Positions 2,246 to 5,638 of a DNA stretch of 35,896 nucleotides are shown here, one piece after another. Every line of letters begins with the position of its first letter. The stretch's first letter is position 1. Source of the DNA: Marmoricola sp. (GTDB lineage Bacteria; Actinomycetota; Actinomycetes; Propionibacteriales; Nocardioidaceae). Location: the NCBI GenBank assembly GCA_025965195.1, contig JAOPXK010000093.1:1-35896 (forward strand), written 5' to 3'. The position numbers were made by a program, and so were the translations under genes. The notes under the pieces were generated by a model. The model saw nothing but the letters and a program-made list of their open reading frames with translations, was not told the origin of the DNA and ran no database searches.

Positions 2246-3094
2246 ATGAGCCGTGAAACCGCACTCGTCAACGCCGAATGGGTCGAGGAGCACCTCCACG
2301 ACCCGAAGATCGTGCTGGTCGAGGTCGACGAGGACACCACGTCCTACGACAAGGGCCACATCAGTGGCGCGATCAAGCTCGACTGGACCACGGAGCTGCA
2401 GGACCAGGTCCGTCGTGACTTCGTGAACAAGGCCCAGTTCGAGGCGCTGCTCTCGGACAAGGGCGTCGGCAACGACCACACCGTGGTGCTGTACGGCGGC
2501 AACAACAACTGGTTCGCTGCCTACGCCTACTGGTACTTCAAGCTCTACGGCCACCAGGACGTCAAGCTGCTCGACGGTGGCCGCAAGAAGTGGGAGCTCG
2601 ACAGCCGCGAGCTCACCGACGTGCTCCCCACCCGCGAGAAGACCAGCTACACCGCGCAGGAGCAGGACCTCAGCATTCGCGCGTTCCGCGACGAGACCGT
2701 CGAGGCGATCGGCGTCAAGAACCTGGTCGACGTCCGCAGCCCTGACGAGTACGCCGGTCGTCTGCTCGCCCCGGCCCACCTCCCGCAGGAGCAGGCCCAG
2801 CGCGCCGGTCACATCCCGACCGCTGCCAACGTCCCGTGGAGCAAGGCGGCCAACGACGACGGCACCTTCCGCTCCGACGACGAGCTCAAGGTGATCTACA
2901 CCGAGGCCGGCGTCGACTGGAGCAAGGACACCATCGCCTACTGCCGCATCGGCGAGCGTTCCTCGCACACGTGGTTCGTGCTCAAGGAGCTCCTCGGCGA
3001 GCAGAACGTGAAGAACTACGACGGCTCGTGGACCGAGTACGGCTCGCTGGTCGGCGTCCCGGTCGCTCTCGGTGACGAGGCGGGCGAAGCCTGA
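2246..3094 (+). CDS. cysA2: Thiosulfate sulfurtransferase (rhodanese), CysA2-like
   Basis: This 282-residue two-domain rhodanese should transfer sulfane sulfur from thiosulfate or a similar donor through a cysteine persulfide. The catalytic loop is CRIGERSS with Cys233 as nucleophile in the C-terminal domain; the N-terminal domain is the usual inactive copy. Conserved stretches such as VILYGGNNNWFAAYAYWYFK-type residues near 80-98 and ENVKNYDGSWTEYGSLVG-type residues near 251-268 are very close to Mycobacterium tuberculosis CysA2/CysA3, from memory. It is preceded by an AGAAAGG ribosome binding site. Its TGA overlaps the ATG of the SseC-like gene, which indicates translational coupling. The cytoplasm is the expected location. 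Confidence 0.93.
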   Translation: MSRETALVNAEWVEEHLHDPKIVLVEVDEDTTSYDKGHISGAIKLDWTTELQDQVRRDFVNKAQFEALLSDKGVGNDHTVVLYGGNNNWFAAYAYWYFKLYGHQDVKLLDGGRKKWELDSRELTDVLPTREKTSYTAQEQDLSIRAFRDETVEAIGVKNLVDVRSPDEYAGRLLAPAHLPQEQAQRAGHIPTAANVPWSKAANDDGTFRSDDELKVIYTEAGVDWSKDTIAYCRIGERSSHTWFVLKELLGEQNVKNYDGSWTEYGSLVGVPVALGDEAGEA

Positions 3095-3390
3095 TGTGCG
3101 GAGCAACTGCCGGTGGACTGTCCCTGGACGGCGTGAACGTCGCCAAGGAGGCCATCATCCAGGGCCAGGTGACGAAAGGTGGCGAGCCGGTCGGTACGGC
3201 GTACGTCCGGCTGCTCGACAGGACCGGTGAGTTCACCGCCGAGGTCCCGACCTCGGCGACTGGACACTTCCGGTTCTTCGCCGGCCCCGGCGAGTGGACC
3301 CTTCGGACGCTGGCTCCTTCGGCGGAGCCGGTCGACAACGTGGTGACTGCCGCCACCGGTGTCGTCGCCGAGGTTGCCGTCGCCATCTGA
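3094..3390 (+). CDS. sseC: DUF1416 family protein, SseC-like
   Basis: A 98-residue protein starting MCGAT, with FRFFAGPGEWTLR near residues 67-79 and EFTAEV in the middle. It resembles mycobacterial SseC, which is always paired with the CysA2-type sulfurtransferase. The predicted fold is a carboxypeptidase-regulatory-like or transthyretin-like beta sandwich. Cys2 is conserved in the family as I recall it, and could be a persulfide acceptor; that is inference. The start codon overlaps the rhodanese stop (TGATG), so the two are co-translated, probably at matched amounts. The operon ends at the hairpin 30 bases downstream. Confidence 0.9.
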   Translation: MCGATAGGLSLDGVNVAKEAIIQGQVTKGGEPVGTAYVRLLDRTGEFTAEVPTSATGHFRFFAGPGEWTLRTLAPSAEPVDNVVTAATGVVAEVAVAI

Positions 3391-3400
3391 CCCGCTCGCT

Positions 3401-3419
3401 GGTCGAGCTTGTCGAGACC
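3401..3419. repeat. Dispersed short repeat, copy 1
   Basis: GGTCGAGCTTGTCGAGACC lies just after sseC. The same element appears inverted at 12614-12632 and in a diverged form at 18152-18174. It behaves like an intergenic REP-type sequence. Confidence 0.7.
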
Positions 3420-3469: not shown

Positions 3470-3512
3470 GCGGTTGATCGAAGTCACCTGGTGGCACCGA
3501 TCAACCGCGTAG
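3470..3512. repeat. 43-bp palindromic repeat, left copy flanking the DUF559 gene
   Basis: Arms GCGGTTGATCG (3470-3480) and CGATCAACCGC (3498-3508) form an 11-bp perfect inverted repeat around a 17-base centre, followed by GTAG. An identical 43-base copy lies at 4519-4561 in the same orientation. The last three codons and the stop of the minus-strand DUF559 gene are inside this copy. Confidence 0.9.
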
Positions 3513-4484
3513 TGCGCAATCGCGTCCGCAGGGCAGCGCCCGTCCGGCCCAACCGCGCTGCTTGAGGAGTAGGGCGATCCGGGCTGCCGTCCAGCAGGGC
3601 CGATCAAAGACCTGGCCCCAGGACAACCGCCGGGTGTCCCGTCCGGAGACCGCGGCGTCGAGGTCGCGATCGAAGTCACGGTCGCGCTGACGAGCCGTGT
3701 CGTGGAAGAGCCGGCCATCCAGCTCGATGACCAGACCGCAGGAGTACTCGACGTCTCGGTAGAGCGCTCCCGACGAACCGTTTGACCGCACCTGGCGGCG
3801 TGCCGGAGCCAGACCGTGGGCCCTCTCGACCTTGGTGAGATAGCCGTGTTCGAGCACCGAACAGGAGCCCGCGGCGACGTCGCGCAGGACCGACGTCATC
3901 CATTCCCTCCGGCTGAGCCGGTCACGAGTGTGGATCATCTCGACGATCCGTCGCGCGGTCGTCCGTCTCGACTGGCAGGCTTCGGCAAGGATCCCGATCG
4001 CGGCGAAGTCCGACTCCGCAGCGGCGGCGACATCGATTGCGGCATGCTCATAGTTCACCCGCGGTGGGCCCATGTTCCACAGCACCCGGTCGGTCAGCCC
4101 GACCACCCGGTGGAGGGTGACACCTGGTGGTCGCACGAGATGGCGATGCCGGTCGATCGAAACGTGCATCGTCGACTCCCCTCGGCCCTTGCCGGGCCCC
4201 TCCGCCGAACGGAGCGCCGACTCGTGACTCAGGGCCGCCGGCCAGGAGAACAAGACTGCGGCCCACGCCCGCTGGAGCCAGCTGAGCGACCCGGTGTGGT
4301 TGACGTACACGCCGGGCAAGGCGATCGCCCACTCCCTGCGTCGCAGGACTCGCCTGATGTCGTGAGCGACGACACCGCGGGCGATCGCTTGCCTGCGAGC
4401 GATCACCCCGGCCTGGTCGGCGATCAGCGCATCGATGTCCTGGGTCATCATCCGATGGTCGGTCGTGGGCGGGCCATGTTCCAT
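3501..4484 (-). CDS. AbiEi-type winged-helix / DUF559 (Vsr-like endonuclease fold) protein
   Basis: A 327-residue protein. Residues 14-62 resemble the AbiEi antitoxin-type winged helix (IDALIADQAGVIARRQA, then a WAIALPGVYV end). Residues 205-310 match DUF559, a PD-(D/E)XK, Vsr-related nuclease fold. Candidate site residues are E212 (CSVLEHGYL), D244 (LYRDVEY), E254 in VIELDGRLFH, H261 and the later SWGQVF. The family is frequent and multi-copy in Nocardioides-type genomes, from memory; a DNA-cleaving function is not shown. ATGs at 4451 and 4448 are alternative starts closer to the conserved domain; none has a good ribosome binding site. The gene is isolated, bracketed by two identical palindromes, and encoded opposite to its neighbours. 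Confidence 0.75.
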   Translation of the reverse strand: MEHGPPTTDHRMMTQDIDALIADQAGVIARRQAIARGVVAHDIRRVLRRREWAIALPGVYVNHTGSLSWLQRAWAAVLFSWPAALSHESALRSAEGPGKGRGESTMHVSIDRHRHLVRPPGVTLHRVVGLTDRVLWNMGPPRVNYEHAAIDVAAAAESDFAAIGILAEACQSRRTTARRIVEMIHTRDRLSRREWMTSVLRDVAAGSCSVLEHGYLTKVERAHGLAPARRQVRSNGSSGALYRDVEYSCGLVIELDGRLFHDTARQRDRDFDRDLDAAVSGRDTRRLSWGQVFDRPCWTAARIALLLKQRGWAGRALPCGRDCALRG

Positions 4485-4518
4485 CCGTCAGGTCGAAACT
4501 GTGGATTCAAAGGGCAGC

Positions 4519-4561
4519 GCGGTTGATCGAAGTCACCTGGTGGCACCGATCAACCGCGTAG
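4519..4561. repeat. 43-bp palindromic repeat, right copy flanking the DUF559 gene
   Basis: This is a perfect copy of 3470-3512, with arms at 4519-4529 and 4547-4557. It lies 34 bases upstream of the first possible start of the DUF559 gene and about 60 bases before the divergent membrane-protein gene, so it could affect both promoters. Confidence 0.9.
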
Positions 4562-4621: not shown

Positions 4622-5638
4622 ATGTCCGGTACCAACTTTTTCGACACTCCGCCACCCGAGGTGCCGGAGGAGTTCGGCGACGCCTATCGGGAGGCCTATC
4701 TCAAGGCGTACGCCGAAGCGCAGGCCGAGTTTCCCGGGGAGATCCCGCCGCTCGGGGAGCTGCACGACTCCGCTGAGCTGTCCGCGATGGGGCTGGAGCC
4801 GGCCGACGAACCGGCCGACCAACCGGCCGACGAGCCGCCGAGCCACGAACCGGCCGCCGAAGGTCCGGACGACGAACCTACCCAAGGGATGCCGCTTGGC
4901 ACCCACCGGGCGCCGTCGGTCGAGCGGGCTGCGCCGTCGTTCGAGACGTTCCGGGCATCCGCGTGGTTCATCCCCGCCCTGATCGCGGTAGCCGCGCTCG
5001 TGCTGATCCTGGTCGCGTACGTCCTGGGTCGGGTGCTCGGAGGGGACGACGCTGCCACGAAGACGCCGACTGTGTCCGCGACGACGCCCGCGCCCACAAA
5101 GGGTGCGGCGAAACCCAAGCCGCTGAAGACCCAGACCGCCAAGCCGATTGCCAATGCCTACGCGGGCGATGTCACGCCGACGACCATCGCGAGTGCCACC
5201 GCAACCTGCACTGCGCCCCCCGGCGTCGACTCGAGCGGCAAGAAGGTCACCTACGGCGTCGGGCACGCGATCGACGACCAGACCGACACGGCCTGGCGCT
5301 GCGACGGCTCGGCGGTCGGCCAGAAGATCGTGCTCGACCTCGGCCGCTCGCAGCCCATCGGCGAGGTCGGCCTGGTCCCGGGCTACGCGAAGACCGACTC
5401 GGAGAGCCACGTCGACCGGTATGCCCAGAACAACCGGATCACCAAGGTGCGCTGGACGTTCGACGACGGCAGCTCCGTCGTACAGAACCTGTCCGGGAAC
5501 CCGCAGGACCGCAGTCTTCAGGCAGTCCGGGTGCCCAAGACCGACAGCGCCACCGTGACCCTGCAGATCCTCGCTGTGACGAACGGCCCGCGGAACACCA
5601 CCGCCATCAGCGACGTCCAGTTCTCAGTCGCCAACTGA
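4622..5638 (+). CDS. Single-pass membrane protein with extracellular discoidin-like (NADase-type glycan-binding) domain
   Basis: A 338-residue protein. Residues 1-110 are acidic and Pro-rich, presumably cytoplasmic, with a tandem PADEPADQPADEP stretch encoded by a 12-base repeat near 4799-4834. One membrane segment follows at about residues 118-140 (WFIPALIAVAALVLILVAYV). A Thr/Ala/Pro/Lys-rich linker leads to a C-terminal beta-sandwich domain from about residue 200, with DDQTDTAWRCDG, LDLGRSQPIGEVGLVPGYAK and TAISDVQFS. This resembles the F5/8C-like domain that actinobacterial proteins annotate as NADase-type glycan-binding. It may bind envelope glycan; that is inference. It converges with the GT61 gene, only 8 bases apart. 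Confidence 0.8.
   Translation: MSGTNFFDTPPPEVPEEFGDAYREAYLKAYAEAQAEFPGEIPPLGELHDSAELSAMGLEPADEPADQPADEPPSHEPAAEGPDDEPTQGMPLGTHRAPSVERAAPSFETFRASAWFIPALIAVAALVLILVAYVLGRVLGGDDAATKTPTVSATTPAPTKGAAKPKPLKTQTAKPIANAYAGDVTPTTIASATATCTAPPGVDSSGKKVTYGVGHAIDDQTDTAWRCDGSAVGQKIVLDLGRSQPIGEVGLVPGYAKTDSESHVDRYAQNNRITKVRWTFDDGSSVVQNLSGNPQDRSLQAVRVPKTDSATVTLQILAVTNGPRNTTAISDVQFSVAN

Follow-up and report, generated by a model that had tools for sequence, protein, structure and literature searches.

The window analyzed here is a stretch of 35,896 nucleotides from Marmoricola sp.; it is contig C73 in a draft assembly of 3.97 Mb and 200 contigs (G000 in our numbering, where G numbers denote genomes and L numbers denote loci). 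Within it, a single AbiEi/DUF559-type gene is bracketed by two copies of GCGGTTGATCGAAGTCACCTGGTGGCACCGATCAACCGCGTAG, which lie in the same orientation, are identical in 43/43 bases, and have a start-to-start spacing of 1049 bp (Table 1). The initial annotation had described exactly this, two perfect 43-base copies, each with an 11-bp inverted repeat around a 17-base center, and had further stated that the left copy encodes the last three residues and stop codon of the gene. Both points held, and the minus-strand open reading frame (ORF) does end in the palindrome, as L-R-G-stop. The palindromic part of each copy covers 39 bp (11 + 17 + 11), for which the expectation was 0 in 100 shuffled windows, and the 17-bp center is itself partly self-pairing, such that each copy makes a near-complete hairpin. 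Folded as plus-strand single-stranded DNA, the two copies gave -15.5 and -17.8 kcal/mol (z -6.0 and -7.0), and 0/200 shuffles were as stable.

Table 1. The palindrome-bracketed gene of the window and its neighbors
Feature	Position	Strand	Remarks
Whole unit, palindrome-gene-palindrome	3470..4561	none	1092 bp; neighbors adjacent without the unit in 8/19 relatives
Left end	3470..3512		39-bp imperfect palindrome (3470-3508) plus GTAG; carries the gene's last 3 codons and stop
Right end	4519..4561		Identical 43-bp copy, same orientation as the left end
AbiEi/DUF559-type gene	3501..4484	-	327 amino acids if read from the first ATG; 4451 and 4448 are other possible starts
N-terminal AbiEi-antitoxin-like part	3873..4451	-	Model residues 1-193
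C-terminal Vsr/EDxHD nuclease-fold domain	3546..3866	-	Model residues 196-302
Left neighbor	3094..3390	+	Presumably DUF1416; 3' end towards the unit
Right neighbor	4622..5638	+	338 amino acids; 5' end towards the unit

On the evidence of PADLOC matches and a structural model, the product of this gene is a predicted fusion of an AbiEi-like part to a Vsr/EDxHD nuclease resembling a homing endonuclease. PADLOC matched AbiEi in 42/46 family members, which together with the model gives the AbiEi-like domain, and the predicted structure matched AbiEi and Vsr/I-Bth0305I in VIA-align, giving a nuclease fold of the Vsr type. Pfam returned only subthreshold matches for the window protein, to AbiEi_4 and MTES_1575 (none at E 0.01), and a scan of the 46 members gave AbiEi_4 (34), MTES_1575 (3), and two single hits. 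Five residues (E201, D233, E243, D245, and H250) were invariant in 46 sequences and are putative catalytic residues of the nuclease. The nearest named homologue was that of Marmoricola sp. URHB0036 (63% identity), which on this evidence makes the initial annotation's "Nocardioides" correct at family level only, and a sequence search with the window protein found no solved structures. With dN/dS values of 0.08 to 0.19 in 13 pairs of relatives, the protein appears to be evolving under purifying selection. The prediction that the enzyme would be something other than a Y1 transposase was borne out, with neither Y1_Tnp nor any other transposase family among the Pfam matches of the 46 members and no Y1_Tnp match in the window's own genome, so that a Y1 transposase of that genome was ruled out. 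No DDE/HUH transposase was recognized among 50 VIA-align rows, where a missing match carries no evidential weight.

To avoid selection on the palindromes, we picked homologous loci by protein, taking the best 80 of 146 relatives (46 to 63% identical) from Nocardioides, Marmoricola, Mumia, Mycolicibacterium/Mycobacterium, Gordonia, and metagenome-assembled genomes (L022 and L101 are one locus). The up- and downstream ends matched each other in 66/80 loci, with 53 pairs direct and 13 inverted, and 0/458 displaced control segment pairs reached the matching-ends score; this control used a set of 84 loci (70/84 matching), four of them partly chosen via palindromes. Clear palindromes (score of at least 11) were found at 98/138 ends versus 0/224 control stretches, and the unit measured 1035 to 1268 bp, with a median of 1115 bp (69 loci). 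When the family was searched by palindrome instead, matches came from 14/245 genomes, the window's own included, and three of the 14 genomes had homologues of the window protein flanked by a pair of similar palindromes ~1.05 kb apart, in a genome-specific variant; G126 has two identical palindromes 1066 bp apart. An exact-match scan of the genome contigs with the long palindrome pattern found nothing, because the palindromes are too variable for exact patterns. Among 30 gene rows of the palindrome-bearing genomes, 19 had matching ends, 8 were partial genes, and 3 (L278, L287, and L297) were full length with ends below threshold. Matching flanks were also present at 15/30 Pfam DUF559 loci from the window's genus (L158 to L187), a rough count in that starts were estimated from weak alignments and L162, L165, and L180 lie at contig edges.

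Several further observations concern genes and ends of this type. L278 (G000:C117:38039-38959) is a second unit-type gene in the window's own genome; its ends are different and more diverged (Smith-Waterman [SW] score of 33, just under the threshold). The G126 gene (L035 2410-3350) matches as two pieces in different frames while its palindromes are identical over 41 bp, and split gene copies occur likewise in several genomes (G097 C3, G171 C1, and G050 C1). Other DUF559 clades have ends of their own, of the GACGTCATACGA type in L166, L168, and L182 and of the TGTGTCCGCGCGTCTGCG type in L161 and L172, which come from different genomes, with L169 similar.

The ends proved to follow the protein. 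End similarity had a median SW score of 68 within a locus versus 16 between loci. Pairs of units at different sites had common ends (SW score of at least 40) in 0.3% of cases at <50% protein identity (n = 923) and in 40% of cases at 80 to 90% identity (n = 35), and pairs at the same site with <65% identity had common ends in 0/100 cases. Because common ends rise with protein identity and are absent from diverged same-site pairs, we concluded that the palindrome belongs to the gene and not to the place. A Mantel rho of 0.30, against 0.15 for the highest of 300 permutations, is only descriptive because the loci are related. Ordinary terminators were ruled out as the identity of the palindromes, since it is with the protein, and not with the site, that the ends vary.

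Borders were measured on one long DNA alignment over the gene, the position being read in the first locus of each pair, after pairs with >150 bp of flank similarity had been classed as same-site and excluded. None of 325 different-site pairs aligned for >30 bp beyond the palindromes, and in the ten most similar ones (81 to 82%) both limits of the alignment coincided with the palindrome edges to within 11 bp.

The initial annotation had held that an absence of empty sites would speak against mobility, and empty sites do exist. Among 19 congeners with the left neighbor of the window unit, the right neighbor was directly next to it in 8, and the unit gene was found in 0 of the 19 within the stretches examined. 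(One of the empty relatives, L140, has a different repeat in the same gap, GATGAAAGTGTCATCTGCGACGCC together with a further, partial copy.) A hot site lies directly 3' of a gene that we take to be miaB in Nocardioides and was matched in 154/157 genomes of the G102 genus. We compared 90 loci from 89 genomes, the best-matching first of the 154 (G108 was skipped, and G293 gave two loci). The gene was present in 29/90, 13 in one orientation and 16 in the other, and absent from 61, counting as empty the uninformative L206, one of the two G293 loci, which is cut by a contig end. Matching ends flanked the gene in 25 of the 29 filled loci, with L211, L236, L237, and L246 below threshold; 7 of the 29 encode a protein identical to that of a member of the 80-locus set, so that the two sets overlap. 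Neither gene nor palindrome (score of at least 12 within about 330 bp) was found at 48/90 loci, L206 included. In a close filled/empty pair, L203/L197, where the neighboring gene is 93.9% identical, the unit of L203 begins 2 bp past the stop codon, and the empty allele has nothing comparable to it.

The remaining 13/90 miaB loci lacked the gene but had a palindrome of some sort, which in at least 4 cases is of the unit type, lone or as a doublet; those of L213, L215, L216, L240, and L264 resemble ordinary terminators, and those of L190, L232, L239, and L241 were placed in neither class. The lone palindrome of L245 matches the ends of L062, and that of L208 matches L096 and L099, all at the miaB site and in other species, and no unit matching either palindrome was found in their own genomes; both read as probable gene loss that left a lone palindrome behind. 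The palindrome of L201 is similar to those that end two units of the miaB site, L044 and L107. In L258 the palindrome forms a tandem doublet, and its match is a unit of a distant clade at another place in that genome, which reads as probable dispersal. Ends in the miaB-plus clade can be composite, with a short palindrome of the GAGTCACCGG....CCGGTGACTC type followed by a longer imperfect one (L090, L096, L099, L110, L203, and L205, and also L208).

Units also change place and orientation. A quick protein tree of 99 rows required 9 changes of the "miaB site" label and 3 of orientation, and its starred branches include sister genes at two sites of the same genome (L079/L121, L056/L065, L114/L124, and L069/L074). 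In Mycolicibacterium, L087 and L098 compared with L076 have 2.4- to 4-kb flanks swapped with unit orientation kept, and the alignments meet at the palindromes; inversions with palindrome breakpoints were likewise found in L118/L119 and L062/L063.

Palindromes occur away from the gene as well. At up to 3 mismatches, a limit that more diverged copies would escape, the window palindrome is at 4 places in its own genome, the two window copies plus L003 (C194), where a stop codon precedes it by 18 bp, and L007 (C58), where it provides the stop codon of the upstream ORF; neither has a unit gene within 1.5 kb. It was found in 0/23 other genomes of the genus. The palindrome of the G102 unit is present 8 times in G102 by the same measure, 2 beside the gene and 6 gene-less, with one weak match in 146 other genomes searched. 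Four of the 6 gene-less copies lie 33 to 57 bp from a second palindrome, much like the doublets known as REPINs. Taking 17 gene-less palindromes from 13 genomes, we ranked the units by similarity and found a unit of the palindrome's own genome first for 5 and second for 3, in a sample that is biased and favors two palindromes of G000 because the strings were found with a window-like pattern. The clade gene is present in all 14 palindrome-bearing genomes, which says little because the comparison had no palindrome-free genome set.

With respect to genomic position, one unit being counted per site, convergent gaps accounted for 22/36 unit sites versus 18/170 other neighbor pairs, although the gap of the window unit itself is not convergent. 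On sides facing a gene 3' end, the outer edge of the palindrome lies a median of 14.5 bp from the neighbor's stop codon (45/58 within -15 to 40 bp). These counts rest on a crude gene caller, which recovered the unit's own gene in 42/68 loci. Repetitive extragenic palindromic (REP) sequences behave similarly. According to one study, most of them occupy gaps that are convergent or unidirectional, and diagrams of two species place them <20 bp from an ORF 3' end (PMC3733652); another reports ribosome stalling by REPs located no more than 15 nt from a stop codon (PMC12306157). Between its left neighbor and the unit, the window has CTGGTCGAGCTTGTCGAGACC at 3399-3419, which we believe to be a common dispersed sequence of actinobacteria. 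Elsewhere in the same genome, L157 (G000:C58:22988-23815) is a second sulfurtransferase-like copy with one in-frame TGA.

The closest known parallel is the REPtron, a gene for a REP-associated tyrosine transposase (RAYT) with its flanking REPs. It too (PMC2817692, PMC3733652, and PMC3116915) places one enzyme gene between two cognate palindromes that vary in step with the enzyme, has REPIN doublets and palindromes without a gene at other places in the genome, and favors convergent gaps as well as positions within ~20 bp of gene 3' ends. The differences are that the REPtron enzyme is a Y1 (HUH) transposase, whereas here it is an AbiEi part plus a Vsr-type nuclease, and that REPtron palindromes have a GTAG head, which is here no rule. 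GTAG was found 3' of 5/138 ends and CTAC 5' of 3/138 where ~3 of each were expected, with zero in two other settings counted; the window copies are among the few ends with GTAG, and identity with GTAG-type REPs was ruled out because these motifs occur near chance level. Furthermore, gene-less REPs usually exceed 100 per genome according to PMC2817692, compared with the few places found in G000 and G102, and the hosts of GTAG repeats named in the accessible text of PMC3733652 do not include Actinomycetota, the phylum in which the present unit was found. The unit resembles a REPtron in its manner of working, yet it does not qualify as one, failing on the Y1 enzyme, the GTAG head, and copy number. 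The initial annotation's idea of a RAYT-like unit of nuclease and palindromes gained from the recurrence, the ends that follow the protein, the borders, the empty, flipped, and lone states, and the dispersal in G102; it fitted less well in that RAYT genes have inverted REPs, whereas the ends here are mostly direct (53/66).

Other known systems are more distant. By fold, the nuclease is closest to EDxHD homing endonucleases such as I-Bth0305I (PMC3943268), and DUF559 has been linked to EDxHD (PMC9403480). Compared with these enzymes and Vsr, the present gene lies between genes with palindromes on both sides, has an AbiEi-like N-terminal part, and has empty sites without any palindrome. Compared with DDE-type insertion sequences, it has no transposase family among the Pfam matches of the 46 members, and its ends are direct in 53/66 loci. 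TnsA of Tn7 acts alongside TnsB/C, and the ends of that transposon are designed differently; here there is only one gene. Plasmid carriage was rejected for want of a match, and phage carriage was rejected with one unannotated phage record found, at 31% identity. Within the open-licence literature searched, seen in part and with subscription papers and preprints outside it, we found no description of such a palindrome-nuclease unit, and the unit appears to be a type of very small mobile DNA that is new to the literature searched.

Comparison among genomes shows an apparent unit with sharp palindrome borders, varied sites, empty sites, in-place flips, lone-palindrome remnants, and palindromes that change with the protein. 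In our interpretation, it is a REP/RAYT-like mobile unit whose enzyme is a nuclease of an unrelated kind, and we infer that this nuclease moves the palindromes. Specifically, we consider it probable that these 1.1 kb form a self-contained mobile unit, with a single nuclease gene between two copies of a long palindrome private to it, and that the nuclease recognizes and cuts its cognate palindrome. The AbiEi-like part and the Vsr/EDxHD-type domain would together recognize the palindrome, in duplex, cruciform, or single-strand hairpin form, and then cut. Our first choice for what follows, held tentatively at a little under even chances, is a homing-like process in which break repair would copy the unit into cut cognate palindromes, with the palindromes as homology arms, in either orientation. 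Such homing would explain the duplicated full palindrome, the two orientations, the matched ends, and the lone palindromes; on its own it leaves arrival at palindrome-free sites unexplained and would need palindrome dispersal. RAYT-like excision and insertion of hairpin-ended DNA is our second choice and seems rather unlikely. Under either, recombination between the two ends could give inversion or gene loss with one palindrome remaining, and gene-less palindromes and doublets would be nonautonomous offspring, tolerated mainly just 3' of genes.

Several results weigh against a self-moving unit. Most of the 325 different-site alignments end inside the unit, their similarity being too low, with 71 beginning and 55 ending at the palindromes, and no very recent jump was seen, the closest different-site units being 82% identical in DNA. 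At the window locus, the relatives with empty sites are congeners whose divergence is too great for the exact junction to be read. The ends fall below the matching threshold in 14/80 loci, 10 of which have a palindrome on one side only, and the ends of randomly paired loci matched in 66/1500 draws because close relatives have common ends. Cognate gene-less copies are few. The initial annotation had inferred palindrome spread, and gene-less copies do exist, but they number 2 in the window's own genome and 6 in G102, not hundreds; by the same token, copies scattered genome-wide, which it had set against its own proposal, were not what we found. For 9 of the 17 gene-less palindromes (G043, G211, two of G102, G232, G238, G067, G042, and G126), no unit of the own genome ranked first or second, and the unit of G126 had dropped out of the comparison, its gene being split over two rows. 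Finally, an AbiEi-like regulator that binds operators would also couple changes in protein and palindrome.

That last point leads to what we regard as the strongest, although unlikely, alternative, in which an AbiEi-like autoregulator binds the two palindromes, selection keeps protein and operator matched, and the moves are passive host recombination at long repeats. The similarity to AbiEi, the covariation of protein and palindrome expected of operator coevolution, and purifying selection befitting a useful regulator are all in keeping with this. The positions of the palindromes speak against it, however: the downstream copy is at the end of the gene, near the neighbor's stop codon, and the upstream copy is mostly 70 to 110 bp before the matched start. 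Similarly, the nearest called gene end was a 3' end for 9/13 gene-less palindromes (by crude gene calls), relocating units keep sharp borders, and the invariant nuclease site would be left unexplained.

We think it improbable that the gene is a nuclease-type defense or AbiE-like gene moved as cargo, with the palindromes as cassette ends, as the PADLOC AbiEi matches might suggest. The AbiEi antitoxin belongs to type IV toxin-antitoxin systems, whereas here it is fused to a nuclease domain, and the unit has room for one gene (median 1115 bp), which leaves no AbiEii partner inside. The two sites read gene by gene, the window and L090, adjoin ordinary chromosomal genes that look unrelated, although no search aimed at AbiEii was made.

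More improbable still is that another transposase, of the Y1/RAYT type or from another insertion sequence, moves the palindromes and carries the nuclease gene along. The architecture does mirror that of REPtrons, and the window copies do end in GTAG, but GTAG and CTAC occur beside the ends near chance level, each palindrome variant is paired with its own DUF559 protein, and the own genome gave no Y1_Tnp match (other transposases were not searched for). Chance or an assembly artefact, which a draft in 200 contigs might have suggested, is refuted by the recurrence of the design in dozens of separately assembled genomes, some within one contig, and deserves practically no credence.

Returning to the self-moving unit, we put at about even the chances of a broader claim, that it represents a new class of self-spreading DNA in Actinomycetota, in which an AbiEi-fused Vsr/EDxHD nuclease mobilizes its own REP-like palindromes and keeps generating new pairs of enzyme and palindrome, and to which many further actinobacterial DUF559 genes belong. 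Its products would include autonomous and invertible units as well as palindromes that stand alone or as doublets. If so, mobile units bracketed by palindromes would have evolved on two or more occasions, one involving Y1 transposases (RAYT) and another a nuclease of the restriction/homing type, and there would be a candidate mover of REP-like palindromes in a genome without a detected Y1 enzyme. It would also give actinobacterial DUF559/AbiEi proteins a proposed function and would provide dozens of natural enzyme-palindrome pairs for direct tests of recognition.
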